This document shows, piece by piece, positions 13-24,751 of a stretch of 34,670 nt of DNA; the stretch's first letter is position 1; each line of letters starts with the position of its first letter. A model generated the notes under the pieces. It saw nothing but the letters and a program-made list of their open reading frames with translations, had not been told where the DNA came from and did not search any database. The stretch comes from an uncultured Halieaceae bacterium (GTDB taxonomy: Bacteria; Pseudomonadota; Gammaproteobacteria; Pseudomonadales; Halieaceae): positions 1 to 34,670 of the forward strand of contig CAJWWA010000005.1 of the NCBI GenBank assembly GCA_913048495.1. The letters are read 5' to 3'. The position numbers and the translations under genes are program-made.

Positions 13-381
13 CTACATCCTCGTGACGGGGTACCTGCTCCAGGACGCGCAGAAGCGCGGCGCGGCGCTGCCGCCGTCATCGGCGCCCCCGCCGTCTTCG
101 CCTTCGCCGCTCTCAGCTTCGCCGGCGTCGCTATCCCCTGCGCTGTCGGTCTCGACCCAGGCTATCGCGTCACCCTCGGCCAGCTGATCGCCCTCCTTGA
201 CCAGCAGCTCCGCCAGGGTGCCTGCTACTGTCGACGGGATCTCCATGGAGGCCTTGTCGGACTCCAGGACAATGAGCCCCTGCTCGACCTCGATGCTGTC
301 ACCGGGCCCTACCAGCAGTTCCACGACCTCCGCCGCCTCGGCGCCGCCGATATCGGGAACGAGTACCTGTTCTTTCGCCAC
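13..381 (-). CDS. aceF: Pyruvate dehydrogenase E2, N-terminal lipoyl domain (partial, broken)
   Basis: This is the start of dihydrolipoamide acetyltransferase, which carries acetyl groups on lipoyl-lysine in the pyruvate dehydrogenase complex. Residues 1-80 form a lipoyl domain, with the lipoylation lysine in the ESDKASMEIPS motif at about residue 43. An acidic Asp/Glu/Gly linker follows to about residue 108. The start is GTG, with AGGAG 8 bases upstream, 26 bases after the aceE stop, so the two genes are co-transcribed. The last 15 residues (beginning RFCASW) do not look like an E2 linker and run into a TAG at 13-15. The further lipoyl, E1/E3-binding and catalytic domains expected of this family are absent. 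Either a frameshift lies in the linker or the first ~70 bases belong to different DNA. Family identity is firm; the true 3' end is not visible. Confidence 0.88.
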   Translation of the reverse strand: MAKEQVLVPDIGGAEAAEVVELLVGPGDSIEVEQGLIVLESDKASMEIPSTVAGTLAELLVKEGDQLAEGDAIAWVETDSAGDSDAGEAESGEGEDGGGADDGGSAAPRFCASWSRYPVTRM

Positions 382-407: not shown

Positions 408-3059
<2,652 letters not shown>

Positions 3060-3077
3060 GGTCGGGGAGGCTCCTGG

Positions 3078-3112
3078 CGTTGCACTGACAATCGTTGCAG
3101 GCGCTCGTTGCA
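3078..3112 (-). repeat. Three CGTTGCA direct repeats in the aceE leader
   Basis: The heptamer CGTTGCA (TGCAACG on the aceE coding strand) occurs exactly at 3078-3084, 3093-3099 and 3106-3112, spaced 15 and 13 bases. It lies 19-53 bases ahead of the aceE start. Three exact heptamers in 35 bases is well above chance. They could be half-sites for a regulator of pyruvate dehydrogenase or part of a leader structure. They do not match the PdhR box (AATTGGT-ACCAATT type). No function is shown. Confidence 0.5.
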
Positions 3113-3125
3113 ACATTTATAGGTT

Positions 3126-3146
3126 CCTAAAAAGAACCTTTTTAGG
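3126..3146. promoter_or_regulatory. A/T-rich palindrome upstream of aceE
   Basis: CCTAAAAAG (3126-3134) and CTTTTTAGG (3138-3146) form a perfect 9-bp inverted repeat around a 3-base centre. A second, overlapping pair GGTTC/GAACC sits at 3122-3126 and 3134-3138. On the aceE strand a TATAAA box follows immediately (revcomp of about 3116-3121), but no good -35 is seen at 17 bp. The position, about 65-90 bases before aceE, suits an operator over the promoter. A 3-base loop and the lack of a one-sided T tract argue against a simple terminator for the upstream protease gene. Confidence 0.45.
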
Positions 3147-3261
3147 TGCGCAATAGCGACCCGAGGGCGCGGACTCAGACCCGCGCGCCACAAAGTGGTT
3201 GTCATGCTACAGGAAACGTGCGCCTGAAGGAAATAACAATTCCCAATTAGAACTAAAGCGC

Positions 3262-6117
3262 TTAGTCGACCACCCAGGTCGCGTGCCCCGCCTTGATCGC
3301 CGTCGCGCTGTCGACCCGCCGGCCGGCGGTATCGGGGACGATCCCGCTGGCGCCGGGGGCGATCACCTGCAGCGAACGCGCCTCCTCCCGGAAGACCTCG
3401 CGGAAGTAGGCCGCCCACTCGTCCCGGTCGAAGTCGTTGACTGCCGCGGCCAGCTGCCGGCGCCCGTCAAAGGCGTACTGGCGCTTGGCGATGGACTGCC
3501 AGTAGAACTCCGCGCGCTCGAACAGGTTCTTGTCGGGCTCCTCGATCTCCGCCACCAGGGCTTCCCGGTGGCGCTGGAAGCGCGGGTCGTCCAGGGACGG
3601 CAGCACCTCGTCGAGGAAGCTGTCCATGGCCGCCGTGACGTGCGCGGCATCGTGGCTCGGGGACTGCACCAGCAGCACGAGACCCGGGATGTCGAACTGC
3701 GGCCAGGCAAAGGCGCTGACCACGTAGCCGAGCTGCTGCTCCGTCCGCAGCTGCTGGAAGAACCCGGACTTCATCACCTGCGCGGCCAGCGCGGTGCCGG
3801 CGCGGTCGCGCCAGCTGTCGCCGCCACCCTGCAGGTACCAGGTCACCACCGCGTCGTCGTGCGGCACGTCGGTCACGAACTGCAGGGTCTCGCCGGCAGC
3901 GAGGCGCAGGACCTCGAGCGGCGGCATCGCCGGGGCATCCCCTTCCGGCAGCAGCGTGCCCAGGGCCCCGGCGAGGTCGCCCACCGCCGACTGCGGATAG
4001 TTGCCGTAGAGCAGGGCCTCCGCGCTCGCGCTGTCCCAGAAGGCGCGGGCATAGGCTTCGATGGCGGCGAGGTCGAGCCCCTGCAGCGCCTCGATCAGCG
4101 CTTCCTCGCCATAGTCGCCGTAGAGCAGCGCCTCGCGCAGGTCATCGATCACCTGCGACGACGGGCGCTTGGCGACCGCATTCTCCAGGCCCCGGACCAG
4201 GTCGGCGCGGATGTTCTCGAAGCGGGACGGATCGAAGGACGGGGCCTCGAGGGTGTCGAGCAGCCGCTCCAGCAGCACCTGCTGCTTGTCGTTGTAGCCA
4301 CTGATGCGCAGGCTCACGCCGCGGGCGTGTTTATAGAGGCTGAAGTCGAGCCCCGCGAGCCGGGCCGGGTAGGTGAACGGGTTGACCGCATCCGTAAGAA
4401 GGTTGGTGTAGAGCAGGGCCGCCGCGACATCGCGGGCATCACCGACCGCGAGCGGGGAACGGAAATTCACGTACATCGCCCCGCGGGGTACGCGGAACGC
4501 CTCGGCCTGGCGGAACCAGATGCGCGTGCGCGAGGTGTCCAGGGCAATCGTCGGCGTCTCGGGATTGTCCGCCGACAGCGGCACCAGCGAGAGGTCCTCG
4601 GCAATGAAGGCGTTCGGCGCGGGCAGATGCAGGCTCTCCGTCGCCGCCGGAGCCCAGCGGGACGCGAGCGCCGGACCCTGCTCCACGGCGTAGGGCACTT
4701 CGTAGTAGGGCGACTCGCGATCCACCGGCACGCCGGGCGCAGTCAGCACGACCTGCGCCAGCGCCGGCCGCATGCCCTCCAGGGCCTCCGCGATGAGGCC
4801 CGGCGCGAAGCGCTCCATGAGGTACGGGCCCCGAAGGACATCCTCGGGGGCGTAATCATGCATGCCGCTGGCCAGGGCGCTGACGTAGCCGATCGGTTCG
4901 CCGTGCTCCCGGAAACGGAAGTCGATGGCCGCCAGTTCCGACTGCTCTTCGTAGAGCCAGCGCTGCGGCCCCTCCTCGCGAAGCATGTCGAGGTAGCTGA
5001 ACAGCAGCGCCAGCACGCGCTCGTGCTCCTCGACACCGCGCTCGGTGAGGGAGACGGTGACGCTGAACAGGGAGCCGCCGCGCCAGGACAACCCCTCTCC
5101 GGCCGCGAGGCCCTCCGCCAGGCCCTCATCCTTCAGGGCGAGCAGGAGGCTGCCCTCCCCCTCGTGACCGATCAGGTTGCCGAGGTAGGCCATGGGCTTG
5201 GCCCGGTACTCGTCGCGGTAGTTCGGCACCTGGAAGTTGACCTGCAGCTGCCGGAGCGTCGCCTGCGGCTCTACCGTGACCTTCATGGGCAGGGATGCCG
5301 GCTCGAAGAGCGGCGCGTCCAGCGGCTCCGGCTCGTAGTCGTGGTTGGGCACCTGCGCAAACAGCGGCGCCACCAGCGCCTCGAGCTCGTCGAGGGGCTC
5401 GGCACCGAGCACTACCAGGCGCATGGCGTTGGCGGAGTAGTGCTTGCGGTAGAAGGCGAGAAGATCGTCCCGCACCGGCGCGCCGGGGCGGTCCGCCAGC
5501 GACTCGAGGCTGCCGACGGAGAACTGGCTGTAGGGGTGGGCAGGGTTCATGACCGCCTGCAGCACGTCGAGGCCGCGCCGCGGGTCGCTCTTCAGCCCCA
5601 TCTGGTACTCGGCCTGCACGGCGTTCTTCTCGCGGTCCACGTAGACCGCGTCGAAGCGCGGCGCAATGAAGAACTGGGCGAAGCGGTCCAGGCCCTCTTC
5701 GAGGAAAGGCGCGTTGATGTCGAAGAAGTAGTTGGTGTGCTCGAAGCTCGTGTAGGCGTTGCGGGAACCGCCGTGCTCCGTGATGTACTGCTCGTACTCG
5801 GCGGCGTCCGGGTACTTGTCGGTGCCGAGGAAAAGCATGTGCTCTAGGAAATGGGCCAGCCCCCCGCGCCCCGGCGGGTTGTCGCCGCTGCCGACCATCA
5901 CGTCCAGGGATGCCGCGGCCTTCTGCGTATCCGGGTCCGAGATGAGCAGCGCCTGCAGCCCGTTCTCCAGCGTGACCAGGCGATAGGCATAGTCATCGGC
6001 CGGGCTTTGTGCCGGCTCCACGTGCTCGCGGACGGGGCTGGCGGCACAGGCCGCAAGCAACATCGACAACAGCAGGACAGGGAGCGCCGGCAGACGCGGC
6101 GCAGGTCGCAGGGGCAT
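3262..6117 (-). CDS. Insulinase-family (M16) zinc metalloprotease, pitrilysin type, lipoprotein
   Basis: Predicted outer-membrane-anchored periplasmic peptidase of the pitrilysin/insulysin branch, which degrades peptides enclosed in a two-half clamshell. The protein is 951 residues; E. coli protease III is about 962. The inverted zinc motif HFLEH is at residues 89-93, and the third ligand is probably E170 in the EKNAVQAEYQ stretch. The C-terminal half carries the usual inactive M16 repeats, including RTEQQLGYVV. The N-terminus is a lipoprotein signal with lipobox LAAC and Cys24, unlike the ordinary signal peptide of PtrA. It starts 3 bases after the permease gene ends, so the two form an operon. 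About 200 bases separate its end from aceE. Confidence 0.93.
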   Translation of the reverse strand: MPLRPAPRLPALPVLLLSMLLAACAASPVREHVEPAQSPADDYAYRLVTLENGLQALLISDPDTQKAAASLDVMVGSGDNPPGRGGLAHFLEHMLFLGTDKYPDAAEYEQYITEHGGSRNAYTSFEHTNYFFDINAPFLEEGLDRFAQFFIAPRFDAVYVDREKNAVQAEYQMGLKSDPRRGLDVLQAVMNPAHPYSQFSVGSLESLADRPGAPVRDDLLAFYRKHYSANAMRLVVLGAEPLDELEALVAPLFAQVPNHDYEPEPLDAPLFEPASLPMKVTVEPQATLRQLQVNFQVPNYRDEYRAKPMAYLGNLIGHEGEGSLLLALKDEGLAEGLAAGEGLSWRGGSLFSVTVSLTERGVEEHERVLALLFSYLDMLREEGPQRWLYEEQSELAAIDFRFREHGEPIGYVSALASGMHDYAPEDVLRGPYLMERFAPGLIAEALEGMRPALAQVVLTAPGVPVDRESPYYEVPYAVEQGPALASRWAPAATESLHLPAPNAFIAEDLSLVPLSADNPETPTIALDTSRTRIWFRQAEAFRVPRGAMYVNFRSPLAVGDARDVAAALLYTNLLTDAVNPFTYPARLAGLDFSLYKHARGVSLRISGYNDKQQVLLERLLDTLEAPSFDPSRFENIRADLVRGLENAVAKRPSSQVIDDLREALLYGDYGEEALIEALQGLDLAAIEAYARAFWDSASAEALLYGNYPQSAVGDLAGALGTLLPEGDAPAMPPLEVLRLAAGETLQFVTDVPHDDAVVTWYLQGGGDSWRDRAGTALAAQVMKSGFFQQLRTEQQLGYVVSAFAWPQFDIPGLVLLVQSPSHDAAHVTAAMDSFLDEVLPSLDDPRFQRHREALVAEIEEPDKNLFERAEFYWQSIAKRQYAFDGRRQLAAAVNDFDRDEWAAYFREVFREEARSLQVIAPGASGIVPDTAGRRVDSATAIKAGHATWVVD

Positions 6118-12230: not shown

Positions 12231-12373
12231 GCCAGTCGTTCAGTGGAACCCCCTATTTTATCACACACGCGACACGCTTCCCCATGGCCCCGCCGGCCTG
12301 CGCCCGGCCCTGCGCTAGGCAACGGCGGCCATCGGTGATAGCCTCCCCGGAACGTCTGTCACACGCGCACGAC

Positions 12374-14206
12374 ATGACCTCGCAGCCGCAAGCGAAAGTG
12401 ACACCGGCCACGGTGCAGCCGAAGGCCAAGATTCTCGTCAGTGATGACGACATGAACGTGCGCCTGCTGACCCGCCAGTGCCTCGAGGCCGAGGGCATGA
12501 CCGTTGTCGAGGCCGCCGACGGCCAGCAAGCGCTGGAAGCCTTCCTCCGCGAGCGGCCCGACCTGATCTTCCTCGACGTCGAGATGCCGGGGCTCTCGGG
12601 CCTGGAAGTGTGCCGGCGTATCCGCGCGATGCCCCAGGGGGAGAATATCCCCATCATGATCGTCACCGGCTCCGATGATCGGAAGTCCATCGACGACGGC
12701 TTCGAGGCGGGCGCCACGCAGTACAAGACCAAGCCGGTCAACTGGTCGCTCCTGGGCCGCGACGTTCAGTACATGCTGCGGGCGAGCAATGCCTTCAACA
12801 GCCTGAAGCGCCAGGAAGACCGGCTGCGCTACCTCGCCTACTACGATCCGCTCACGAACCTGCCCAACCGGCGCAGCTTCAACGAGCAGCTGACGCGGAT
12901 TCTCAAGCGGGCACAGCGACTGAACCACAGTGCCGCGCTCCTCTTCATCGACCTCGACAACTTCAAGCGCATCAACGACTCCATCGGCCATGGCCGCGGG
13001 GACCGGCTGCTGGTCGAAATCGCCAAGCGCCTGGCCGGGGAACTGCGTGAAGACGATGCCATCAACTATTTTTCCGACAGCAATGCGGACGACGTGGACC
13101 CCCGCGACCGCAATACGGAGATCGCCCGCCTGGGCGGGGACGAGTTCACCGTGGTGCTCTCCGACGTGCGCGACATGCGCGATGTCGAGGGTGTCGCGCA
13201 GCGCGTCATCAAGACCCTGTCGGAGCCGATCTCCCTGCATTCCCACAACCCGGTGGTGACACCGAGCATCGGCATCGCCATGTATCCCCAGGATGGCCTC
13301 GACGCCGACAGCCTGGTGCGCAACGCCGATACCGCCATGTACGCGGCAAAGGCCGACGGCCGCGCCTGCTTCCGCTTCTACAACGAAGAGATGAATGCGC
13401 GGTCCGTCGAGCAACTGAAGCTCGAAGAGGACCTGCGCGAGGCCATGCGCGAGGGTCAGCTGGAACTTCGCTACCAGCCACAGGTGGACACCCTGACGGG
13501 GCGGGTAGTGAGCCTGGAGGCCCTGGTGCGCTGGAAGCACCCGATCCGCGGTCTGATATCACCGGGCGACTTCATCCCCGTTGCGGAGCGGACCGGGCAG
13601 ATCATCGAGCTGGGCGAATGGGTGCTGGCCGAAGTGGCCCGGCACTGCACCTACTGGGAGACGCTCGGCCTCGTGGACTTCCGGGTCTGCGTGAACATCT
13701 CGCCGCTGCAGTTCAACCAGCCGAACCTCGTGGAGCGGGTGCGCCACTTCCTGGACACCTCGGGCATCGACCCGGCGCGGCTGGAGCTCGAACTGACCGA
13801 AAGCGCCATCATGACCGACGCCAAGACCAACATCGACAAGCTGCGCCAGCTCAACGAGCTTGGGCTGGATCTCGCGGTGGACGACTTCGGTACCGGGTAC
13901 TCCTCGCTCAGCTACCTCAAGCGCTTCCCCATCAACACGCTGAAGATCGACCAGAGCTTCGTGGCGGACATGTCGAGCCAGGATGGCGTTGCCATCGTCG
14001 ACGCCATCATCGTCCTGGCCAAGACCCTCAACCTGCGGTCCATCGCCGAGGGCATCGAGACACGCGACCAGCTTCGTCACCTCGCCGCGCAGCACTGTGA
14101 CCTGATGCAGGGCTTCTTCTTCGCCCGCCCGCTCTACCCCGAGGACGTACCCGACGCCCTGCGTACCGATTACGCCCGGGATATCGCCGACGCGCTCAGA
14201 GATTGA
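12374..14206 (+). CDS. Response regulator with GGDEF and EAL domains (c-di-GMP turnover)
   Basis: Two-component output protein of 610 residues expected to make and/or break cyclic di-GMP. Receiver domain: about residues 17-135, with acidic SDDD near the start, phospho-acceptor D68 in LIFLDVEMPG and the lysine in KTKPVNW. GGDEF domain: about 160-330, with intact GGDEF at 254-258. EAL domain: about 345-600, with EAL at 382-384 and catalytic residues in VNISPLQF, ELTESAIM, DDFGTGYSS, KIDQSFV and AEGIE. Both active sites look complete. A ~15-residue acidic insert precedes GGDEF and the RxxD inhibitory site is not in its usual place. I start at ATG 12374 (MTSQPQAK); the frame opens 30 codons earlier with unlikely sequence, and no clear ribosome site is seen. 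The S8 protease gene begins 9 bases after the stop. Confidence 0.92.
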   Translation: MTSQPQAKVTPATVQPKAKILVSDDDMNVRLLTRQCLEAEGMTVVEAADGQQALEAFLRERPDLIFLDVEMPGLSGLEVCRRIRAMPQGENIPIMIVTGSDDRKSIDDGFEAGATQYKTKPVNWSLLGRDVQYMLRASNAFNSLKRQEDRLRYLAYYDPLTNLPNRRSFNEQLTRILKRAQRLNHSAALLFIDLDNFKRINDSIGHGRGDRLLVEIAKRLAGELREDDAINYFSDSNADDVDPRDRNTEIARLGGDEFTVVLSDVRDMRDVEGVAQRVIKTLSEPISLHSHNPVVTPSIGIAMYPQDGLDADSLVRNADTAMYAAKADGRACFRFYNEEMNARSVEQLKLEEDLREAMREGQLELRYQPQVDTLTGRVVSLEALVRWKHPIRGLISPGDFIPVAERTGQIIELGEWVLAEVARHCTYWETLGLVDFRVCVNISPLQFNQPNLVERVRHFLDTSGIDPARLELELTESAIMTDAKTNIDKLRQLNELGLDLAVDDFGTGYSSLSYLKRFPINTLKIDQSFVADMSSQDGVAIVDAIIVLAKTLNLRSIAEGIETRDQLRHLAAQHCDLMQGFFFARPLYPEDVPDALRTDYARDIADALRD

Positions 14207-14215
14207 TCACCACGC

Positions 14216-16189
14216 ATGAGCGGTAGGACCAGGGGGCTGCTGCTGGCCATCATGGCCCCCGCGCTGTGTACCCTCACCACTGCGGCGCACGCCGACCCGA
14301 AGTCGGTAATGCTCCAGGGTACCTCGGCAACGGCACTTCGCGAGCAGGTCGAGGCCGTCGGCGGCGCTGTGACTCACTTCCTGCCCATCATCGACGCGGT
14401 CGGCGCACAGCTGACCGCCGCCCAGGTGGACCAGCTGCGCGACCGCCCGGGCATCCACCGCATCATCGACGACCTCGACCGGGAGGAGCCGGAAGCGCCG
14501 CCGCCCCCGTGTCAGCTGGGTGGCGCCCTCGAACTCGACATCGACGGGACCTCGGTGCGGTGGCGGCTCTACAACAAGAGTGGGGATGCGGTCCAGTTGA
14601 CGGGTGTCGAGCTTACCTGGCCCGCCGCCCTTGGAGCATTAAAGAAAGCAGACTTCGCAGGCAGTGCACTGGCTGTGGAGCCAGGGGAGTCGAGCGGCGG
14701 CGCCACCCTGCGACCGACTACCACGGCTGCGCTCCCCGGCGACGCGCGCGGCACGTTGGCGCTCGAGTTCTCCCGACCCTGGCCCGAGGGGACGCTCTTC
14801 CAGCGCGACCTGGAGCTCACCGTCAACTACGGGGATGAATGCGATGTCGAGCTGATACCCGGCTACGACGACAACGACGGCGACAGCTACTACAGCACCG
14901 TGGCCGGTGCGGACCTGCTCCACCGACACGGCATCACCGGGGCCGGCGTAACCGTGGCCGTGCTGGATTCCGGCCTCTGGGACGACCCCAGGCTCACCCA
15001 TGACACGCAGGGTGAGCCGCGCGTCCTGGCCAGCTACGACGCCATTGCGGGCGAAGAAGTCACCACCGTTTTCGACGAGAGCGGCCATGGCAGCCACATG
15101 ACCAGCATCCTCGCGCAGAGCCGGGCCATCACCCGGCCCGGCGCTGACCCCGGCGCCTGGCGCGGCGTGGCTCCCGATGCGCGACTCGTGGTCGTGAAGG
15201 CCTTCAGCCGGGAAGGCCAGGGCGGTCTTCTCGATATCGTCCGCGGTGTGCAGTGGATCGTGGACCACCGGGAAGAATACGGCATCCGCGTGGTCAACCT
15301 TTCCTTCGCCGCCAAGCCCCGGTGGCCCTACTGGCAGGACCCCATCAACCAGGCCCTCATGCGCGCCTGGGACGCGGGCATTGTCTCCGTGGCAGCGGCG
15401 GGCAACGAGGGTCCGGACGCCATGACCATTGGGTCACCGGGCAACCTGCCCTACCTGATCACCGTCGGTGCCATCACCGACAGCTGGACCGTTGACGACC
15501 GCAACGACGACTACCTGCCCGACTTCTCCTCGCGGGGGCCCACACCGAGCGCCCACATAAAGCCCGATCTCGTGGCCCCGGGCGGGCATATGGCGGGGCT
15601 CACGAGGCCGGGATCCACGTTGACCGTAGACTTTCCCGAGTACCAATTGGTGAATGGCGACTTTGTGATGACCGGGACCTCACAGGCCGCCGCGCTCGTA
15701 TCGGGTCTTGTGGCCCTCCTGCTGCAGGTAGAGCCGGAGCTGACCGCAGACGACGTGAAGTGCAAGCTGTTGTCCTCCGCCGACCCCGCCATCAACGCCG
15801 ACGGTCTCCTCAGCTACTCACCCTTCGAGCAGGGAGCCGGCGCCGTGAGCATCCAGCGCGCACTCACCCTCGGGGACACGGGCTGCGGCAACCGGGGCCT
15901 GGACCTGCAAGCCGACATGGCCGGCGACAGCCACTTCGAAGGCCCGGCGATCCTGGCGAAGGATGGCTCCCCCACGCTTCCGGGCCTCGATCGCATGGTC
16001 GCCCCCGAGCCACCGGAGAAGGGCCCCAGCGACAACCGCCGCTGGGGGATCAAGGCCCACATCGAGCGGCCGCGGCTTACGCCCGGGGAAGCCGACATGC
16101 CCGCTGACCCACAAACACCCTTCGACTGGCACGGTCTCTACCTCGAGGAGAAGGCGCGGGTGGAACAACTGTCCCGCCCGGCGGAGTAA
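14216..16189 (+). CDS. Secreted S8 (subtilisin-type) serine protease
   Basis: Exported subtilase of 657 residues. Signal peptide about 1-26. Residues 27-90 resemble an inhibitor-I9 propeptide (FLPIIDAVGAQLTAAQVDQL). A Cys-flanked, probably beta-rich segment follows at 95-225. The catalytic domain spans about 235-545 with D251 (VAVLDSGL), H291 (ESGHGSH), oxyanion N397 (AAGNEG) and nucleophile S489 (MTGTSQAAA). All catalytic residues are present; GTSQAAA replaces the common GTSMAAP. The last ~100 residues are Pro/Asp-rich and look disordered; no autotransporter barrel or sorting signal is visible. Composition matches the G+C-rich flanks. The gene sits 9 bases behind the c-di-GMP regulator, so the two are probably one transcript. 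It is 268 bases ahead of the secreted repeat protein, which makes that protein a candidate substrate; this last point is inference. Confidence 0.92.
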   Translation: MSGRTRGLLLAIMAPALCTLTTAAHADPKSVMLQGTSATALREQVEAVGGAVTHFLPIIDAVGAQLTAAQVDQLRDRPGIHRIIDDLDREEPEAPPPPCQLGGALELDIDGTSVRWRLYNKSGDAVQLTGVELTWPAALGALKKADFAGSALAVEPGESSGGATLRPTTTAALPGDARGTLALEFSRPWPEGTLFQRDLELTVNYGDECDVELIPGYDDNDGDSYYSTVAGADLLHRHGITGAGVTVAVLDSGLWDDPRLTHDTQGEPRVLASYDAIAGEEVTTVFDESGHGSHMTSILAQSRAITRPGADPGAWRGVAPDARLVVVKAFSREGQGGLLDIVRGVQWIVDHREEYGIRVVNLSFAAKPRWPYWQDPINQALMRAWDAGIVSVAAAGNEGPDAMTIGSPGNLPYLITVGAITDSWTVDDRNDDYLPDFSSRGPTPSAHIKPDLVAPGGHMAGLTRPGSTLTVDFPEYQLVNGDFVMTGTSQAAALVSGLVALLLQVEPELTADDVKCKLLSSADPAINADGLLSYSPFEQGAGAVSIQRALTLGDTGCGNRGLDLQADMAGDSHFEGPAILAKDGSPTLPGLDRMVAPEPPEKGPSDNRRWGIKAHIERPRLTPGEADMPADPQTPFDWHGLYLEEKARVEQLSRPAE

Positions 16190-16302
16190 CCAGCCACGCG
16201 CGCCGTGGCACACCGGCCCGGATCACCCACCCCTCTCGCGAGGCTCCTGCTCCCTCATCGCACTCGAGGCTTTGCCTGCGGTAAGCCCCCCGAATAGCCC
16301 CC

Positions 16303-16318
16303 TACCCCAAAGGGGGTA
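16303..16318. promoter_or_regulatory. TACCCC-GGGGTA palindrome, NarL/LuxR-type operator-like
   Basis: TACCCCA, two bases, then GGGGGTA gives two inverted heptamers in a 7-2-7 layout. NarL-type response regulators bind heptamers close to TACYYMT in this arrangement; here the last position of each heptamer differs. The centre lies at about -53 relative to the start predicted from the downstream -10, a usual place for an activator. No LuxR/NarL regulator is encoded in the window, so the assignment rests on pattern only. Confidence 0.4.
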
Positions 16319-16328
16319 CCCCCCCATC

Positions 16329-16357
16329 TTCATCAAATACGACCTCACATCTAAGGT
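16329..16357 (+). promoter_or_regulatory. Candidate promoter of the repeat-peptide gene
   Basis: TTCATC (16329-16334) and TAAGGT (16352-16357) are separated by 17 bases, giving a weak sigma-70 match that would need an activator. The TACCCC/GGGGTA palindrome sits just upstream. Transcription would begin near 16364 and leave a leader of about 94 bases before the ATG at 16458. Confidence 0.35.
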
Positions 16358-16457
16358 CTGATCAAACGCGAGAAGAATGATCGTTACAGGATCAACTCAG
16401 GCACCAGGCGCGCGGCGCTGGTTAATCGATTTTGATGAAGAAGGTAGGCGTAGGACT

Positions 16458-17003
16458 ATGAAGACACTGGTAAAAGAGACGGCGTTTGCCATTCTCGGCG
16501 TTGGAATCGCGCTGACACCAGCGTTCGTAGCTGCTGAAGAGAGTCAGCGAGCCGGCAGTGTGCGCACCGAGATAGCGAAGGCCATGCTTTACGGCACGCA
16601 CGCAAAGAGTGACTCGGGCTACAAGTGGAGTTCACGAGATAGTGTACGTATGAACGCCAGCCAGGTTGCAACCGCACAGCCTAAGGCTATGGGCAACGCC
16701 TCAGGCTACAAGTGGGGTCGAGTAGAAGGTGACAGCGACAGCGCGTCAACCAAACCCACAGGGGCCGTTGCCGCAGCGGAAGCTGGCTACAAGTGGGGCA
16801 TCCGCTCCAACGCCGACCAGGCTGGCTACAAGTGGGGCATCCGCTCCGGCGCCGACCAGGCTGGCTACAAGTGGGGCATCCGCTCTGACGCCGACCAGTC
16901 TGGCTACAAGTGGGGCATCCGCTCTGACGCCGACCAGGCTGGCTATAAGTGGGGCATTCGCTCCGACGCCGACCAGGCTGGCTATAAGTGGGGCATTCGC
17001 TAA
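16458..17003 (+). CDS. Secreted protein with tandem GYKWGIR repeats; candidate multi-copy peptide precursor
   Basis: I do not recognise a family. The 181-residue protein has a signal peptide (MKTLVKETAF...AFVAA, likely cut after Ala26). Residues 27-109 contain two degenerate GYKW motifs, GYKWSSR at 54 and GYKWGRV at 83. From residue 110 there are five exact 13-residue units GYKWGIRS(N/G/D)ADQ(A/S) and a sixth that stops right after GYKWGIR. The seven-residue core never varies while the linker does, and each core ends in Arg. This layout resembles precursors that release several copies of a peptide; the neighbouring S8 protease could do the cutting. A self-assembling or binding repeat protein is the main alternative. 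I start at ATG 16458, where the signal peptide begins; GGTAGG lies upstream. A strong terminator follows, so it has its own transcript. No modifying enzyme is nearby. Confidence 0.8.
   Translation: MKTLVKETAFAILGVGIALTPAFVAAEESQRAGSVRTEIAKAMLYGTHAKSDSGYKWSSRDSVRMNASQVATAQPKAMGNASGYKWGRVEGDSDSASTKPTGAVAAAEAGYKWGIRSNADQAGYKWGIRSGADQAGYKWGIRSDADQSGYKWGIRSDADQAGYKWGIRSDADQAGYKWGIR
16785..17000 (+). repeat. 39-bp in-frame tandem repeats (5 full units plus a 21-base partial)
   Basis: Units begin at 16785, 16824, 16863, 16902 and 16941, with a partial unit at 16980-17000 followed by TAA. Each encodes GYKWGIR plus a six-residue linker. Differences are few: AAC, GGC or GAC at the ninth codon, GCT or TCT at the last, TCC or TCT for the Ser, and TAT/ATT in place of TAC/ATC in units 5 and 6. 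The shared synonymous changes of units 5 and 6 point to recent unit duplication, so copy number probably varies between strains. Confidence 0.95.
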
Positions 17004-17042
17004 ACTCCCACTAGCCCGCAGCAAGCTAGGCAAGTTCCTAAG

Positions 17043-17075
17043 GGCCAGCGTCTACGACGCTGGCCTTCTTCTATT
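17043..17075 (+). terminator. Rho-independent terminator after the repeat-peptide gene
   Basis: GGCCAGCGTC (17043-17052) and GACGCTGGCC (17056-17065) form a perfect 10-bp G/C-rich stem with a TAC loop, followed by TTCTTCTATT. It begins 39 bases after the stop and separates this gene from the sensor kinase. Confidence 0.85.
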
Positions 17076-17103
17076 ACGACCCTTCTAAGCTATCTGCTAG
17101 ACT
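17074..17103 (+). promoter_or_regulatory. Candidate promoter of the sensor-kinase pair
   Basis: TTACGA (17074-17079), 18 bases, then TAGACT (17098-17103) preceded by TGC, which resembles an extended -10. Start of transcription would fall near 17110, about 20 bases before the ATG at 17131. It lies directly after the terminator, as expected if the sensors have their own promoter. Confidence 0.4.
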
Positions 17104-17130
17104 CGCCTAAATAGCTTGCGTGTCTGTGCG

Positions 17131-20100
17131 ATGCTTCGAAGATCAACTTCCATCAGGGCAACACTGCTCTTAACCGCACTACTTTCTCCGCTTTTCGCTC
17201 AATCGGCAGAAGAGCCTCCAACGCAGTACCAATTTCAACTCGCGGATATTTCAGACGATCTTACACAGAGCTCTGTACAAGACATCCTTCAATCCAAGTC
17301 AGGTGAATTGTGGATTGCAACACAGGAAGGCTTAAACCGTTACAACGGCCACACCCTTGTCACGCATCGCAACTCGCCGTCTGAGCAGGGAACTATATCC
17401 TCAGACGCCATCACGAGCATAACCGAGTCATCAGATGGCAGCGTTTGGATCGCGACAATAAATGGCGGCCTGAATCGCTTTGATCCAACTTCGCGAAAGT
17501 TTGAGAGCTTCTTTGCATCATCTGCGGCCAATAGCCCAGTATCGAATGATATCTATTCAGTCTACGCGGACTCGCGAGGAGGTATATGGATTGGATATGA
17601 GGGTGCAATAAGCCATCTTGACCCCAAAACAATGTCGTACCGACACCTTGTTTATGAGCAGGATTTGGGAAGGTCACTTGGACTTGTTACCAGCTTTGCC
17701 GAAAATGAGGCAGGTGACATCTGGGTCTCGACCACCGAAGCTGGGCTATTACAAATCGATAGGCGACTGGAGATCAAACGCCGGCACATCATAGAAAGCA
17801 CGAACACGTCACCCTCCAGGCTAATTCAACCCTCGCAGCTAGCATTCAATGGGGAAGAATTATGGGTCGGAACGCTCAATAATGGCTTGTTCATGTTGGA
17901 GACCGGCAGCGGGAAGTTCACCCAATACACCAGTTCGACCGGACCAGCGCGGCTGCCATCAGATACGATCTACGACATCTACTTCGATGACCAGTCGAAC
18001 CTCTGGGTCGGCACCAACTCCGGACTAGCTATACTCGACAGAACGCGAACCACTATTCAACTGTATAGTAATGAAGACAGCGCCTTGCCAGCTGCTCGAA
18101 TTACTTCGATAGCCCAAACGAGAGACGGTACATACTGGATTGGCACGTTCTTCGGTCTCTCCAAGGCTAGAAGATCGTACTTTACTAAGTACACAGAAGA
18201 GAACTCTGGACTCTCAAATGCCTCTGTAAACGCTTTTGCCATGACAATCGACGGCAGTATCTGGGTTGGCACTGATGACGGACTGAATCAACTTACCCCC
18301 GAGAGTGATGAATTCAAGTGGTACAACACATATACGAATCCTGCACTCTCGGACGATGCTGTAATGTCTCTACTAGGTGAGGGCAACACTCTCTGGGTTG
18401 GCACTTACTCTGGAGGCCTAAATAAGTACGAACTGAAGACAAATAAAATCACCACGATCCGCGCCTCAAATGACGCGGAAAGAGTGCTGGCTGCAGACGG
18501 TATAACTTCGCTCCTCAGAACCTCCACCGGCCACCTAATCGTAGGGACCTACCAAGGAGGACTTTCGGTCTTTGAACCGGGAGAGAAACATGCAACAGTC
18601 TATCTACATAATCCAACTGACAGTCAGTCTCTAAGCAACAACAATGTTCTTGCACTCCTAGAAGACTCATGGGGCAGGGTTTGGGTCGGCACCGAGAACG
18701 GACTCAACCTTTTCAGTCTTAAATCTCGGCAGTTTAAGAGGTATTACGCAGAGAAAGGCAATACAAACAGCTTGTCCAGCAACATGGTGTGGAGTCTGCA
18801 CGAAGACAGCAGCGGCAATCTCTGGCTGGGCACCAACGGAGGTGGGTTAAACCTGTGGCGAAGGAACGAAATCGAGTCAAGTAACCCTCAGTTTGAGCAC
18901 TTTTCCGAGAACATATCTCTCCCGAGCAGCTCTATCTTCGGCATTGAAGAGGATGAGAGCGGCAACCTCTGGTTGAGTCACAACAAGGGTGTGACGCGCT
19001 TCAACCCATCAGCGCTTGAAGTGCGTCATTTCCGAGAGGTAGATGGCCTACAAGATTCAGAATTCAACATGGGCGCGTCATTCAGCGACGGGCAAGGGGC
19101 CATCTTCTTCGGCGGACCAAGAGGCTACAACAAGATACTCCCTGCTGCAGTCCCCGAGAAGGCCCCAATACCGCAGGTCTCCATCGCCGACATACGGGTA
19201 ATGAACCAACCGGCAGCGCTCGATAAACCATATAACGAAGTAACACACTTGCGCCTTGACTACACCGACAGAATGTTCACTGTAGATTTCTTTGCAGCGG
19301 ACTTCTCCTCACCAGACAGTATTCGATACGCCTACAAGCTTGACGGAATATCGCCAGATTGGGTGATCTCACGTGATGCACGAAAAGCCTCGTTCACGAC
19401 ACTGCCTGCTGGGGAGTATCGCCTCAAACTGGCTGCAGCCAACGCTGCAGGCACATGGAACTGGGACGCCAAGCAGATTGATATCACCGTTGCGCCTCCT
19501 CCATGGCTGAGTAGAACCGCATACGTATTCTACGCAGTACTTGTGACGGCCATCGCACTCGCTGTCATCGCCTCAGTCACGTCCCGCGCAAGACGAGCTG
19601 AGGCTCGGCGACTCGAACTTGAGGCCAAAGTTAGAGAACGTACACATGAGTTGGAGGAAGCCACGGAGATTGCCGAGCAGGCGAACAAAGCAAAATCACA
19701 GTTCCTGGCCACAATGACTCATGAAATCCGGACACCGATGCATGGAATCATCGGAATGTCCGAGCTGCTTCTCAACTCTAAACTTACTCCTTCCCAACGC
19801 CGATTCGCTGAAACAGCAAAACAGAGTGGAGAGTCCCTACTTCAACTCATAAACGACATTCTCGACCACTCCAAACTGGAGGCTGAGAAAACTGAGATAG
19901 AGAACACTAGTTTCGATCTTGTGACCTTGGTTGATGATGTATGTCGACTGCAATCCGAAGTCGCCTACAGAAAGGGAATCCAGGTCTATAACATATGCGA
20001 TGAATCCGGCCCTCGGTGTTTCATAGGCGACCCCACCCGAATTCGGCAAATCGTTACCAATCTTGTCGGTAATGCAATCAAGTTTACAGAGCAGGGATCT

Positions 20101-21627
20101 GTAAGAGTAAAGCAGAAAGTCAAGGGTCCTGCTACCGGACACACTCGATTCGAAGTCACGATAGCAGTTGAAGACGACGGTATTGGCATGGACGAAGAGA
20201 CGCAGGAGAAAATCTTCGAATCGTATACTCAGGCCGACGCTAGCACGACAAGACGTTTCGGTGGATCGGGTTTAGGATTAACTATTTCAAGAAAGTATGC
20301 CGAGCTGATGGGCGGTGAGATACACGTCAACTCACGTATCAATATCGGCTCGACAATATCTCTCGTTGTTCCGCTAGAGGCAGAGACCATAGAGGGATTG
20401 CAGCGCTCGCAGATAGATCCATCCCTCCGCTGCACAATAGTCTCAGAGGACACCCTTACAGGCAGAATGCTAGAGTCGCACCTCCGCTCTCTCTCTGTGT
20501 CCAGAGTAGCGCACGCCACCAGTCTTTTAGAGGCTGAGAAAGAGGAAATGGAACCTGGGGCTTCGCTTGGACATATTGTTTTTGCTCCGATGAAGCATGG
20601 ACAGAAAAGCAACAAACTTAGAAATCCCCCGAAAGGTAGTACTACTAACACGGTGGTGTTCTACAGCTACTCTGCCAGCGAGGTCGCATTAGCATTGGAT
20701 GAGGGGATGCACGCTCTTCACCTCCCAGTCGTCAGCGCTGAAATGGAAATGGTTCTTGTCCACCGGGGAGCCAACGGCCTCTATGAACCCGAAAGGCACT
20801 TCGACTCGAGCTTGCTGAGCGACGCAGATAGCCCAATAAAGGCTCATGTACTCGTTGCGGAAGATATGCCAGTCAATCAAATGATTATCGGTGAGTTTCT
20901 TCATGCGGCTTCATGCTCTTTTGACATAGCAAACAACGGCAAGCAGGCCGTGGAACTATTCTCGACGAGAAAGTACGACCTGGTTTTTATGGACTGCCAG
21001 ATGCCGATCATGGATGGTTACGCGGCAACCAAGGAAATCCGACGAACACAGGCTGGGCGCGGGCACACGCCAGTGGTTGCACTAACTGCGGGTGGAAGCA
21101 AAGAGGACTTAGCGGAATGCAGGGAGGCGGGAATGGACAAAGTCCTGCAGAAACCTTTCAAGCAGGCCGACATTACCGGAGTGCTTGACGAGTACACCCA
21201 GGTTAGCCGTGTGGAAGGTCTGCCCGCGCTAGAGTCTGACGGTGAAGCCGGAGCGCACCAAAGCACACACACAAACGCAGAAATCGATGAAAACGTAATT
21301 AATGGGTTGCGACGCCTTGCGTCGCAAACATCCAATCCCGAGTTAATCATGCGCCTCTTAGAAGGGTATAGCGAGCAGATGAGTAACAAGCTTGGAGAAC
21401 TTGGAGAGGAGGAATCAAAAACTAATGCCGAACATATTGCCAGTATTGCCCACGCCATAAAGTCAATGAGTGCCAACATGGGTGCTGCGCTGGTAAGAGA
21501 AGAAGCCTCCAAGCTTGAGAAAGAGGCGAAGGAAAATCGGATTGCGGACTTTGAGGCGCACCGAGAACGCATCAGAGGCGCATTTGCATCCTTCATGAAC
21601 ATCGCGAGACGGATGCCACTTCAGTAG
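17131..21627 (+). CDS. Hybrid histidine kinase with double beta-propeller sensor, Y_Y_Y, REC and HPt domains
   Basis: Membrane sensor of 1498 residues. Signal peptide about 1-26. The periplasmic part (30-690) has about 14 Reg_prop motifs of the form LWVGTxxGLNxF (for example [36 protein letters not shown]), enough for two seven-bladed propellers. A Y_Y_Y domain (about 700-790) and one membrane helix (797-819) follow. Inside: HisKA with H864 in THEIRTP; HATPase with [16 protein letters not shown] and FGGSGLGL; a degenerate receiver lacking the Asp (about 1085-1230); a true receiver with D1288 in [12 protein letters not shown]; and an HPt domain with H1441 in [13 protein letters not shown]. This is a complete phosphorelay ending in HPt, so a separate response regulator must receive the phosphate. 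The outer half resembles Bacteroidetes HTCS glycan sensors, without their AraC output. A TTG five codons upstream is possible but ATG 17131 suits the signal peptide. Base composition is far lower in G+C than the flanks. Confidence 0.9.
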
Positions 21628-21640
21628 TGGTGCCACAGAG

Positions 21641-24600
21641 GTGGTTTTTGTTCCTTATGTCGTGAAACACCTGCTGATTGTCTTCCTGTTTTCTCTTCCT
21701 ACCGCAGCTGCCAGCGGGACTCCACTATCCCATATACCTACAAGTTTTCTTAATACCACTCCGACCGTTCTGGAAGAGGTGTCGGGAACAACCTTTACCA
21801 ATGTCGTGCTTCGTCCAGATCGCGATGTATGGGCAGCCAGTCTTGATACTATCGTTCGTTATGATGGGCACGGTGTAACAAGCTATCGCCTGCCCGGCAT
21901 AAGCAGCGCAGGTCTCCCCGTCGCCAGAGTTGCGGAACTTTTCGTCGATTCAGCGCAACGTATTTGGGCGGCGGGGTTCGATGGACGGGTGTTCAATTTC
22001 AACCCGGATATTGAGCGATTTCAACTTGCCGTCTCCATTGATTTGCATGCAGCCAGAGTGGTCGAAGCAAAACACGACGGAGGGACAGGCCTATGGTTTG
22101 GGTTCTCCGACGGGAGCTGTTTCGTATATGACATAGAGCGACAGACTACCCAGCAGAGGTGCCAAGGATTGGAAGGAGCTACTGTTGACTTCGCTTTTGG
22201 TTCGGCATCGACACTAGCTCTGTCTGAAGGCGGCACCATCCTTAATCTCAAGCCCAATCCCAATCCGACAGCAGGCCCCGAAAACACTGAAGACAACTGT
22301 TCCTTACCAGGCACAACATTCACTGAGATATCAGCATTAACCAGAGACACGGTGTTACTTGGGACTCACGGAGCCGGTTTGTTCAAGTGTTCGACACAAG
22401 ACGGCGGCGACAAGTTACGCGCTGCAGAGAGTGTTGATGCAGTTTCCCGAAAGACGACTGTTCATGAGATTCTAGTGGCAGAGTCCACAGGAAAGGTATT
22501 TGTTGCCACAGATTCCGGCTTAGATGTCCTTGACGCAGAGTCCCTAAAACTGCTCTACAGTTCCAAGTTCGCGAGCGATCTGGTCAACACTGAGTTTACT
22601 GCGCTAGCTTTACAAGGTACTGATACGATCTGGGCATCTAGCTTCGCCGGACTCTACAGGCTACATGCTTCCGCTACCGTAATCACAAAGGACCTGCCCG
22701 GGAATCCGACGCCGTCAATAATTGGTTTCACGAGCCTAGGTGATCACGTAATTATTGCAGACTACGCCGGTCTTTTCCTTAGCGACCAGAAAGGGCTAGG
22801 AAGAAACATCGGAAGTGCTATACATCATATGTGCGACATCTCCGGAGGGATTACGGCAGTAACCACTTGGGAGAATCATGTTGTTTACGGACTTCGGAGC
22901 GGTGGCGTCTTTAGGCTTCCTTTCGAAGCCGGGCAGGCACATTGTGGCGCATCAAGCCTAATCAGCGATATTGGTCCGATAAGCACGCTGATACCCGCAA
23001 ATGACAGCCTTCTCATTGGAACATTCGGCAAGGGCGCGTATAGATTCAATGCTAAGACTGGTCTTCAAAAGATAGAGGCATCGACGCGTAGCGACCCTGA
23101 TCAGAGCAGGGTGCTGCACATTGAAGAGATAGAAAGCTTAGGCCTTCTACTGCTTACTGAGGGCGGGATTGTCGTAGCACCGGATGAACCGAACTCACAG
23201 ACACCATTAATGCAGGTTGCTTTGCTGCTTAAGGGAACTATCCCTTGGGCAGCATCTACATTCGGAGACTATTTGTGGCTTGCCACTCCCACTAACGGTG
23301 TCTTCGCACTTTCTCTCAAGGGTATTCCCGCTCGAGAACCAGAAATCATCATCCACCATGCGCTCCCCGGAGAAACTATTCAGGCTGTTGAGGCAATATC
23401 AAGCACTGAAGCCCTTGTTTCTTCTACAACGGGTTTATTCAGATTATCTACGAAGGGTTCCGTGCAACACGCTTTTAACGCAACAGGTAAAACCGCAGTG
23501 AGGTTCGACTTTGGGGCTTCATTGAGGTACCAGTCGGGCATTCTTTTCGGCGGGACTGGCGGGTACGCAAGGATAGATCCAACAATTATCCGACCCGCCA
23601 TGACCACACCCCGTCATAGAGTTACTGCTTATGCGATCGATGATAGAGAATTCCGTCTATATCGACCTTTGAAGCAAGCAGACAAAGTGTTGGTGACGGC
23701 GGGAAAACAACGGCTAACATTCAAACTGGGCTCGCTAGCACCGTGGGCAACCCACGAACTTAGACTTAGATATCGACTTGAAGGGTTTGATTCCGCCTGG
23801 AGGCAGGGCAAGCTAGAGGACAAGATCTCTTATACCAATTTGCCTCCGGGAGGCTACGAGTTTCAATCACAGCCCAAAACGCGGGGAGGAAAGTGGAGCT
23901 CCTCGGTTCTATCGCTACAAGTAGAAGTGCTCCCGCCGTGGTGGCGTTCCATTTGGGCATTAATTGTTTACGCGATTGCCGCGACCGGACTGGCTGCGAT
24001 CGCAAAGCATTATTACGGAACCATCCTAGTCTCCCGCCGGGCCACACAGCTATCCCGTGAGATGACCGCGACTGCAGAGCAAGCAATAGAAGACATGCAG
24101 GACGAGGTCGAGACGCAGGCACGCCTGCTTGAGAACGTGACCAGCAGGAATGTAGCAACGCTTTCCTGGATCGGGGAGGTTGTGGGTCGGCAGGCCGATA
24201 CGCTGCCCGATGCGTTGTCCTCGGAGATGGCGAAGGTTTCCCTTGGGCGTATAGAAGCCTTCGTTTGCCTTGAGCATGCGCTTCGGTACCGGGATGACCG
24301 CGTTCTGGCTGATCTGCGCTGTTTTACGGACGAGTGCAGTGCCATGTTGTTGTCTCGTCGCAGCAACGGCAGCACGGTCACGCTGATCAACGAGGTCAGC
24401 GATACACTCGTCGATGCAGAGCATGCTGCCCGGCTGGCAACGGTCATCTACGAGTTGCTCGCGAATGCGCTGGACCACGCGTTTGTCGGTCGGGAGTATG
24501 GCAACTTTCTCCGGGTCGCCCTTGAACTCACGCCCGAACCGCGGGTAGGGGCGATAACGGCAACCGTCACCGTGGAGGACAACGGTATCGGCCTGCCCGA

Positions 24601-24751
24601 GGGCGTTTCGCTGGAGGAATACGAGACTGCAGGCTTTTCGCTGATCCGTGAAGTGACGGCCCACTACGGCGGGCGAGCGGCGCACAAGACGACCAGTGGC
24701 GGATCGTCACTTCGCGTCGAACTAACGCTCCCGGAGGACGCTGTAGCCTGA
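21641..24751 (+). CDS. Second propeller/Y_Y_Y sensor with HisKA_2-like kinase region lacking the phospho-His
   Basis: Membrane sensor of 1036 residues starting 13 bases after the hybrid kinase, surely co-transcribed. Signal peptide about 1-25. About 14 diverged propeller motifs follow (VWAASLDTIVRY, IWAAGFDGRVFNF, LLGTHGAGLF, LWLATPTNGVFAL, ILFGGTGGYARI), then a Y_Y_Y-like region (about 675-760) and a membrane helix (about 767-788). The cytoplasmic part fits HisKA_2 by its RIEAFVCLEHALRYRDD stretch, but the HHRVKNNL site reads TSRNVATL: Ser835 stands where the phosphorylated His belongs. The ATPase domain keeps ELLANALDHAF, EDNGIGLPEG and GFSLIREV. It may act as a co-receptor or ATP-binding partner rather than a kinase. 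The start is uncertain: GTG 21641 or GTG 21662 (KHLLIVFLF), neither with a well-placed ribosome site. G+C rises sharply after about 24040. Confidence 0.82.
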   Translation: MVFVPYVVKHLLIVFLFSLPTAAASGTPLSHIPTSFLNTTPTVLEEVSGTTFTNVVLRPDRDVWAASLDTIVRYDGHGVTSYRLPGISSAGLPVARVAELFVDSAQRIWAAGFDGRVFNFNPDIERFQLAVSIDLHAARVVEAKHDGGTGLWFGFSDGSCFVYDIERQTTQQRCQGLEGATVDFAFGSASTLALSEGGTILNLKPNPNPTAGPENTEDNCSLPGTTFTEISALTRDTVLLGTHGAGLFKCSTQDGGDKLRAAESVDAVSRKTTVHEILVAESTGKVFVATDSGLDVLDAESLKLLYSSKFASDLVNTEFTALALQGTDTIWASSFAGLYRLHASATVITKDLPGNPTPSIIGFTSLGDHVIIADYAGLFLSDQKGLGRNIGSAIHHMCDISGGITAVTTWENHVVYGLRSGGVFRLPFEAGQAHCGASSLISDIGPISTLIPANDSLLIGTFGKGAYRFNAKTGLQKIEASTRSDPDQSRVLHIEEIESLGLLLLTEGGIVVAPDEPNSQTPLMQVALLLKGTIPWAASTFGDYLWLATPTNGVFALSLKGIPAREPEIIIHHALPGETIQAVEAISSTEALVSSTTGLFRLSTKGSVQHAFNATGKTAVRFDFGASLRYQSGILFGGTGGYARIDPTIIRPAMTTPRHRVTAYAIDDREFRLYRPLKQADKVLVTAGKQRLTFKLGSLAPWATHELRLRYRLEGFDSAWRQGKLEDKISYTNLPPGGYEFQSQPKTRGGKWSSSVLSLQVEVLPPWWRSIWALIVYAIAATGLAAIAKHYYGTILVSRRATQLSREMTATAEQAIEDMQDEVETQARLLENVTSRNVATLSWIGEVVGRQADTLPDALSSEMAKVSLGRIEAFVCLEHALRYRDDRVLADLRCFTDECSAMLLSRRSNGSTVTLINEVSDTLVDAEHAARLATVIYELLANALDHAFVGREYGNFLRVALELTPEPRVGAITATVTVEDNGIGLPEGVSLEEYETAGFSLIREVTAHYGGRAAHKTTSGGSSLRVELTLPEDAVA

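Follow-up and report, generated by a model that had tools for sequence, protein, structure and literature searches.

A Trp-motif repeat protein encoded between a subtilase and propeller sensor kinases in Halieaceae: a candidate protease–sensor module

Described systems and the locus

Yeast alpha-factor is a multi-copy peptide precursor which is cut by the subtilase Kex2. HTCS proteins carry an AraC-type DNA-binding output in the same chain, LapA/LapG is a case of c-di-GMP-controlled periplasmic proteolysis, and the functional amyloids curli and Fap consist of brief tandem repeats that keep a Gln and tend towards beta structure. Few peptide signals are known in Gram-negatives, and, apart from the Bacteroidetes systems that sense glycans, little is known about what propeller sensors bind. 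Parts of the logic proposed below, in which peptides are processed and a propeller acts as sensor, are already known. The proposal concerns a locus within a 34,670-nucleotide stretch of DNA (the window) from an uncultured Halieaceae bacterium, in which an earlier note, made from the letters of the sequence, had picked out one gene as a possible multi-copy peptide precursor. This gene encodes the repeat protein P0001 and stands third in a cassette whose conserved order is REC-GGDEF-EAL protein, S8 subtilase, repeat protein, HK1 and HK2 (Table 1). The trio of subtilase, array and sensor looks like an undescribed bacterial signalling module. We tentatively read the repeat protein as a chain that carries many copies of one short recognition motif centred on Trp and that belongs to a protease–sensor module; the motif would be a ligand for the propeller sensor and the subtilase its processor, a reading that we favour at a confidence somewhat short of probable.

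The likeness to alpha-factor and Kex2 lies in a signal-like N-terminus, tandem near-identical cores, variable spacers, a terminal core and a subtilase partner. Unlike that system, the present one is bacterial, its subtilase is genetically linked, it has no universal dibasic or Arg site, its putative receptor is a propeller kinase instead of a GPCR, and it is known from genes alone. Near-identical cores with drifting spacers (Gln12 excepted) and a linked protease, as expected of a multi-copy precursor, are found, and a conserved cleavage residue at the core border is not (R/K in 48 of 56 arrays). The closest solved structure to HK1 is the HTCS relative 4a2l (E 2.7e-89), and by Pfam HK1 shares with the HTCS its Reg_prop propeller, Y_Y_Y, HisKA, HATPase_c and REC domains, plus Hpt; it differs in pairing REC with Hpt and in having no HTH. 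The papers found on such systems deal mostly with polysaccharide use by Bacteroidetes or gut symbionts, the rest being concerned with PorZ, whereas the present cassette holds a subtilase and a repeat protein. Pfam scans of the five cassette proteins found no glycan enzyme and no RiPP-type modifying enzyme, and with the latter result a modified-peptide (RiPP) reading was set aside. HK2 has Y_Y_Y and HATPase_c without HisKA by Pfam, and its phospho-acceptor is not evident.

As in LapA/LapG, a protease, a c-di-GMP protein and a repetitive secreted protein occur together, but here the protease is an S8 subtilase and not a cysteine protease such as LapG, the repetitive protein is a small Trp-motif protein and not a giant adhesin, and propeller kinases stand in place of LapD. 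P0001 shares short tandem units, a conserved Gln and perhaps a beta propensity with curli and Fap; it differs from them in its Trp-centred 12–13-mers, in the freely variable spacing seen in relatives, and in that the Pfam and NCBIfam scans are empty. In the literature searched, in which subscription journals are scarcely covered, the module is not described in such text as was accessible, no paper contains GYKWGIR, and nothing joins two component regulator propeller, subtilisin and peptide, or Reg_prop, serine protease and histidine kinase.

Table 1. Features of the cassette and its flanking elements in the window
Feature	Position	Strand	Detail
REC-GGDEF-EAL protein (c-di-GMP turnover), first cassette gene	12284..14206	+	Pfam
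S8 subtilase, signal-like N-terminus (by eye), propeptide-like domain, C-terminal tail	14216..16189	+	PF00082, E 2.4e-47
Single core-like motif in subtilase tail, DNRRWGIKAHIER, RWG(V/I)K	16031..16069	+	pattern in 39/59 tails
16-bp dyad TACCCCAAAGGGGGTA, presumed regulator site upstream of repeat gene	16303..16318	+	
Repeat protein P0001	16458-17003	+	ORF, 181 aa plus stop
Array	16785..17000	+	five 13-residue units GYKWGIR-S(N/G/D)ADQ(A/S) and final GYKWGIR core
Intrinsic terminator-like hairpin right behind repeat gene	17041..17067	+	12 pairs
HK1, hybrid histidine kinase with Reg_prop/Y_Y_Y propeller, REC and Hpt	17116..21627	+	Pfam
HK2, Y_Y_Y / HATPase_c sensor protein	21641..24751	+	Pfam

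The cassette in related genomes and the constraint on its repeat units

P0001 belongs to a gene family. Among 58 related genomes it has matches in 25 of the 37 that come from the window's own taxonomic family and in 0 of the 21 from other families; in its own genome, the single match is the gene itself. Nine loci found through the repeat protein carry a name, Pseudohaliea, Chromatocurvus, Haliea or Parahaliea, three of them being uncultured Haliea assemblies, and the named members are Halieaceae (three of these genera were looked up). The neighbouring subtilase is present in 81 of 120 genomes of the family, and locus regions were taken from 80 of these, the 81st being the window's own. A loose rule finds tandem arrays in 63 of the 80 regions, one of them spurious (L097) and excluded from the array counts, and a stricter rule finds arrays in 58 loci besides the window. 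The 17 scanned loci without an array include some at contig ends, others with cis repeats (L139–L143), a degenerate case (L133) and two with a single motif (L144, L145); some contigs break at the repeats themselves.

The order of the cassette is conserved. The larger locus set was gathered through the subtilase, and unbiased support for linkage comes from the nine loci found via the repeat protein, in eight of which the subtilase lies directly upstream, the ninth (L039) starting inside the array. The full five-gene order is present in six of these nine; in L036 HK1 is in two pieces at the end, L035 ends in the array and L039 starts there. Across the wider set, an EAL gene lies at most 400 nt upstream of the S8 gene in 57 of 58 loci, HK1 follows the repeat gene directly in 37 of 44 loci with enough sequence, and an HK2-like match follows HK1 in 29 of the 34 loci that extend over 3 kb past it. 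Among the seven exceptions to the HK1 position, L111 has HK1 some 1.4 kb further on; the other six comprise five genomes with HK1 elsewhere and one, of 87% completeness, in which it was not found. In L008 (L111 as first fetched) a transposase-like frame, recognised by eye, stands between the repeat gene and HK1. In a set of 27 genomes, HK1 is found in 16 of 21 with the subtilase against one of six without it (G019, partial, 31% identity). Gene neighbourhood is, as such, an association only.

P0001 has a hydrophobic N-terminus which by eye resembles a Sec signal peptide (putative), followed by two diverged motifs, GYKWSS at residues 54–59 and GYKWGR at 83–88. The tandem layout which the earlier note had described, a pair of diverged GYKW motifs, then five units of 13 residues, then a terminal GYKWGIR, is borne out by the ORF, in which the last core abuts the stop codon directly, and by Tandem Repeats Finder (16782-17001, period 39 bp, 5.6 copies, 95% match, score 377). 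The program lists one other tandem array in the window (63-100, score 55). No family in Pfam or NCBIfam matches P0001, in agreement with the note, which recognised no described family with this repeat.

The units were analysed in 59 arrays, 56 of period 13 and three of period 12, with 3–20 units in closed genes; loci with fewer than three chained Trp (for example L084, L095, L119) were left out of the constraint analysis, and the three period-12 arrays out of the position and codon tables. Among 338 adjacent unit pairs, the 7-residue core shows 567 synonymous against 28 replacement differences. Because synonymous differences so far outnumber replacements in the core, the copies have diverged in DNA yet are alike as protein, and with the core kept across related arrays while synonymous sites vary, the P0001 array is confirmed as real, beyond chance. 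The linker has 369 synonymous against 268 replacement differences overall, with the exception of the Gln at unit position 12, which at 78 against 2 is conserved as strongly as the core. The core constraint, linker drift and copy-number change that the note proposed to look for therefore recur in relatives, but its invariant core becomes a strongly constrained one in which neither the Tyr nor the final Arg is invariant across the family, and its drifting linker retains one fixed residue.

Trp4 is fixed in all 56 period-13 arrays, Gln12 in 55 and K or R at position 3 in 55; at position 2, 34 arrays have Y and the others S, F, N, M, K or H. Within arrays, identity at core positions is 0.95–1.00, against an entropy of about 1–2 bits at six of the seven positions between species. 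The cores run from GYKWGIR to AFKWGLK, ASRWIIR, GNRWGRR and GSRWRR, all copies changing together, which is as expected if all of them must fit one partner.

The earlier note had gone on to observe that each core ends in Arg, a common protease site, and to suggest that several copies of a peptide of 7 (or 13) residues may be released; taken literally, a Kex2-like cut after Arg would free a 7-residue GYKWGIR hormone. Position 7 is indeed Arg in 45 and Lys in three of the 56 arrays, arrays end at the core, and a subtilase is encoded next door. There are, however, five clear exceptions (N in three, Q in one, G in one) and three arguable ones, L074 being a two-unit tie artefact and L116 and L117 having Arg one position earlier. 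With five arrays clearly lacking R or K, one Arg-directed cut cannot serve the whole family, although it could serve most of it. Moreover, the spacer Gln12 is under core-like constraint, and cutting behind the Arg and nowhere else would yield a 13-mer instead of a 7-mer, so that the 7-residue hormone is very unlikely. The wider precursor idea is strengthened by the gene context, but uniform Arg-directed release of a 7-mer is not supported. In its favour are a subtilase upstream with a propeptide-like N-terminus and an array that ends at the core: in 47 of the 49 closed arrays, that of the window among them, the chain stops two to three residues past the final Trp (open arrays were excluded from the end counts). 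The two other endings are those of L125 and L138. In L138 (G033) the subtilase matches fall in two separate frames, and the adjacent array ends irregularly, with Gln at unit position 7.

Trp motifs in the subtilase tail and in cis

The AF2 model of the subtilase has a mean pLDDT of 88.9, with the propeptide, catalytic domain and most of the tail confident and weak stretches at, for example, 398–406 and 621–630; Foldseek matches the model to pro-subtilisins. Asp251, His291 and Ser489, which we take to be the catalytic triad, are invariant columns in an alignment (A2) of 56 sequences, those of the window and 55 of the 69 remaining once L137–L147 had been excluded. The tail carries a single core-like motif. 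The pattern [KR]W[GSAI][ILVFM][RK] occurs in 39 of 59 subtilase tails and, outside the tail, in none of the 59 proteins (the sequences being related, not independent); in 1000 shuffles it never appeared in more than two of 59. Nineteen of the other 20 tails keep the Trp-Gly with changes beside it, and one tail is missing (L138). In genus g13 (L144–L146) the subtilases are diverged and tail-less, with an N-terminus that is lipobox-like by eye. Beside those of L144 and L145 is a small protein, secreted by its look, which has a single FQWG motif in place of an array; many copies are thus not needed there.

Trp repeats are also found on subtilases themselves. Among 293 genomes drawn from the order, the only match outside the window's own family was a G332 subtilase, P0002, which bears GYIWNM cores in cis, 14 in all, spaced by linkers that range from 0 to 38 residues in length, a freedom which argues for a discrete motif; some of its stretches read DADNAGYIWNM, close to DADQAGYKWGI. 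With P0002 as query, eight further genomes were obtained (three besides the window's own in 369, and five in 398), though the query itself contained repeats and may favour repeat-bearing matches. All eight of these distant gammaproteobacterial subtilases carry aromatic, Trp-centred repeats on their own C-terminus, namely GYLWNN x9, EAFMWD x9, GLIWKN x6, AYLWFD x5, AVIWRL x4 in two, DPWGGGY x3 and VVWNN x2, the fewest being in G994 (2) and G424 (3, irregular). Seven of the eight adjoin a Reg_prop or Y_Y_Y sensor, the eighth (G416) ending at a contig edge, and the sensors of G1038 and G1040 are identified by a Y_Y_Y match and by similarity to HK1, while the others carry kinase, GGDEF or GGDEF-EAL parts. 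In 14 hand-chosen genomes, each of the 14 family subtilases has a Y_Y_Y gene within 6 kb, whereas such a gene is found within 5 kb of two of 53 other subtilases and within 10 kb of five of 53; the last count is six of 54 if a neighbour that had been merged with the family gene of G1040 is counted apart, and all such cases are beside a family subtilase.

Cis repeats occur within the window's own family too: in G007 NYWNAG is repeated 56 times, and in four g9 genomes the repeats are FVWND or YFFND. Unlike the separate arrays, cis arrays do not end at the core. In L139 (subtilase frame 2321-5308, reverse strand) a C-terminal run of 56 NYWNAG copies is followed by HK1, with a REC-GGDEF-EAL match beyond on the other strand. 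In the subtilase of L142 (frame 1235-3787, reverse strand), some 230 residues rich in Asp, Thr, Ser and Gly link the propeptide to the catalytic domain. After the cis arrays of L140–L143, L197 and L200–L202 comes a common ending, N-x-W-(A/V)-x-x-(E/Q), with small variations, that of L199 being looser. L200, L201 and L202 (G1056, G1038 and G1040) have two more subtilase genes beside the repeat-bearing one, less than about 8 kb from the propeller sensor.

The conserved tail motif and the cis arrays on related subtilases might suggest that the array is a partner of the enzyme, a multi-copy docking site or pseudo-substrate which titrates, inhibits or localises the subtilase, the sensor then reading protease activity. 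A propeptide-like inhibitor domain that carries the motif in G009 would also fit. This is a small protein between HK1 and HK2 with a domain that resembles a subtilase propeptide (hhalign E 6e-10; no Pfam match); it bears two SIWKT motifs and lacks a catalytic domain. No subtilase was found in the 13 kb around it, however, and in this arrangement it is therefore the motif, not the protease, which follows the sensor. Tail motif and repeat core, moreover, do not vary together, as judged by eye, and a partner role of this kind is improbable. The motif may be carried by the protease, by a propeptide-like domain or by a separate chain, and what recurs is the pairing of aromatic motif and propeller sensor, with a subtilase nearly always present.

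The main rival of the ligand reading, and an unlikely one, is a sticky or fibre-forming surface or matrix protein, in which the Trp-centred units would be short beta-strands that stack or stick (as an amyloid-like fibre, an adhesin or a cell-surface binding array) and c-di-GMP and the subtilase would control assembly or release. The alternating Y-x-W-x-I pattern, the fixed Gln in each unit and the c-di-GMP protein in the cassette are in keeping with this, the cis arrays on subtilases could be binding appendages, and in the AF2 model of P0001 (39 rows), at low confidence, the WGI of five cores out of six forms a strand of three residues. That model, on the other hand, has a mean pLDDT of 50.6 and a pTM of 0.24 and yields neither solenoid nor sheet nor globular fold with confidence. 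A period of 12 or 13 and the linkers of P0002 are unlike a regular solenoid, and the pairing with propeller sensors is left unexplained. A profile of 39 of the loosely found arrays, window included (A1), matched just lysostaphin 6rk4 (E 0.0013) and LST8 (0.38) in the PDB, which are taken as periodicity matches.

Proposed function and the DNA around the repeat gene

A ligand role for the motif is favoured because its pairing with a sensor recurs and because the copies are near-identical within a cell and differ between lineages. Under this reading, which is drawn from sequence, Sec would export the repeat protein and the neighbouring subtilase would act on it, freeing or trimming units of 12–13 residues. 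Whether released as peptides or still attached to their chain, the identical motifs would then be ligands of the HK1 propeller and perhaps of HK2, and a phosphorelay would bring about a c-di-GMP change, in one direction or the other, via the REC-GGDEF-EAL protein, while a regulator at the TACCCC/GGGGTA dyad may set the amount of repeat protein made. More broadly, one could imagine a widespread gammaproteobacterial form of cell–cell or self-sensing, in which subtilase and Trp-motif array, on one chain or in two genes, provide a propeller-sensor ligand that sets c-di-GMP, the motif differing between lineages but staying near-identical inside each cell, as a species-specific peptide signal might; this extension is possible but doubtful.

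Several observations count against the ligand reading. There is no universal cut residue, some members have a single motif, the cis arrays do not stop at the core, and G002 has the subtilase with neither an array beside it nor HK1 found. Core–receptor co-evolution, to be expected of peptide quorum sensing, was also sought, by partial Mantel tests in 33 loci with EAL divergence removed, and rejected for lack of signal: in this weak test, core and HK1 propeller divergence gave partial correlations of -0.04 and -0.10, with 342 and 393 of 500 permutations as high. Core against the subtilase catalytic domain gave 0.15 (85 of 500 permutations as high; 33 loci), with no clear signal. Linker distance correlates with every part tested (partial 0.22–0.40), which is read as general relatedness.

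Since a candidate ligand, protease and receptor are present in named strains (Pseudohaliea rubra, Chromatocurvus halotolerans, and Haliea and Parahaliea species), the ligand question is directly testable, for which the synthetic 13-mer SDADQAGYKWGIR would serve. The conserved sensor kinases and the cis-repeat subtilases are additions beyond the earlier note. The repeat array is either part of the protease chain or encoded by a gene apart, which has a conserved element of its own upstream and, in roughly half of the cases tested, a terminator-like hairpin.

That upstream element, a dyad of consensus TACCCC-NNNN-GGGGTA, lies 100–190 bases upstream of the repeat gene in most members. It is conserved: of 63 upstream regions, 59 match it at no fewer than 10 of 14 positions, where mononucleotide shuffles would lead one to expect 3.8, the consensus having been derived from the same 63 regions, which are related. 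Its 7-2-7 layout presumably resembles that of NarL/FixJ-type sites. With up to three mismatches allowed, the pattern matches twice in the window, at one place on both strands, where 0.45 is expected, and two matches were reached in 10 of 100 dinucleotide shuffles; the window's single dyad is weak alone, and the case therefore rests on recurrence across upstream regions. Upstream of the cis-repeat subtilases, seven of eight score at a background level of 7–8, and L196 reaches 12 of 14.

On the downstream side, a terminator-like site stands behind 27 of 50 closed repeat genes by our own rule, window included, and such hairpin sites number four in 14000-17400, both strands, against 1.7 +/- 1.6 in shuffles. 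No match to a sigma-70-type promoter was found in 14000-17400. The repeat gene may be its own transcription unit because it has both the conserved upstream dyad and the terminator-like hairpin downstream. In the window's genome the dyad is the only site without mismatch, the reversed control pattern giving one match, and dyads with one mismatch occur at two other places (G000:C48:2594-2609 and G000:C137:4669-4684).
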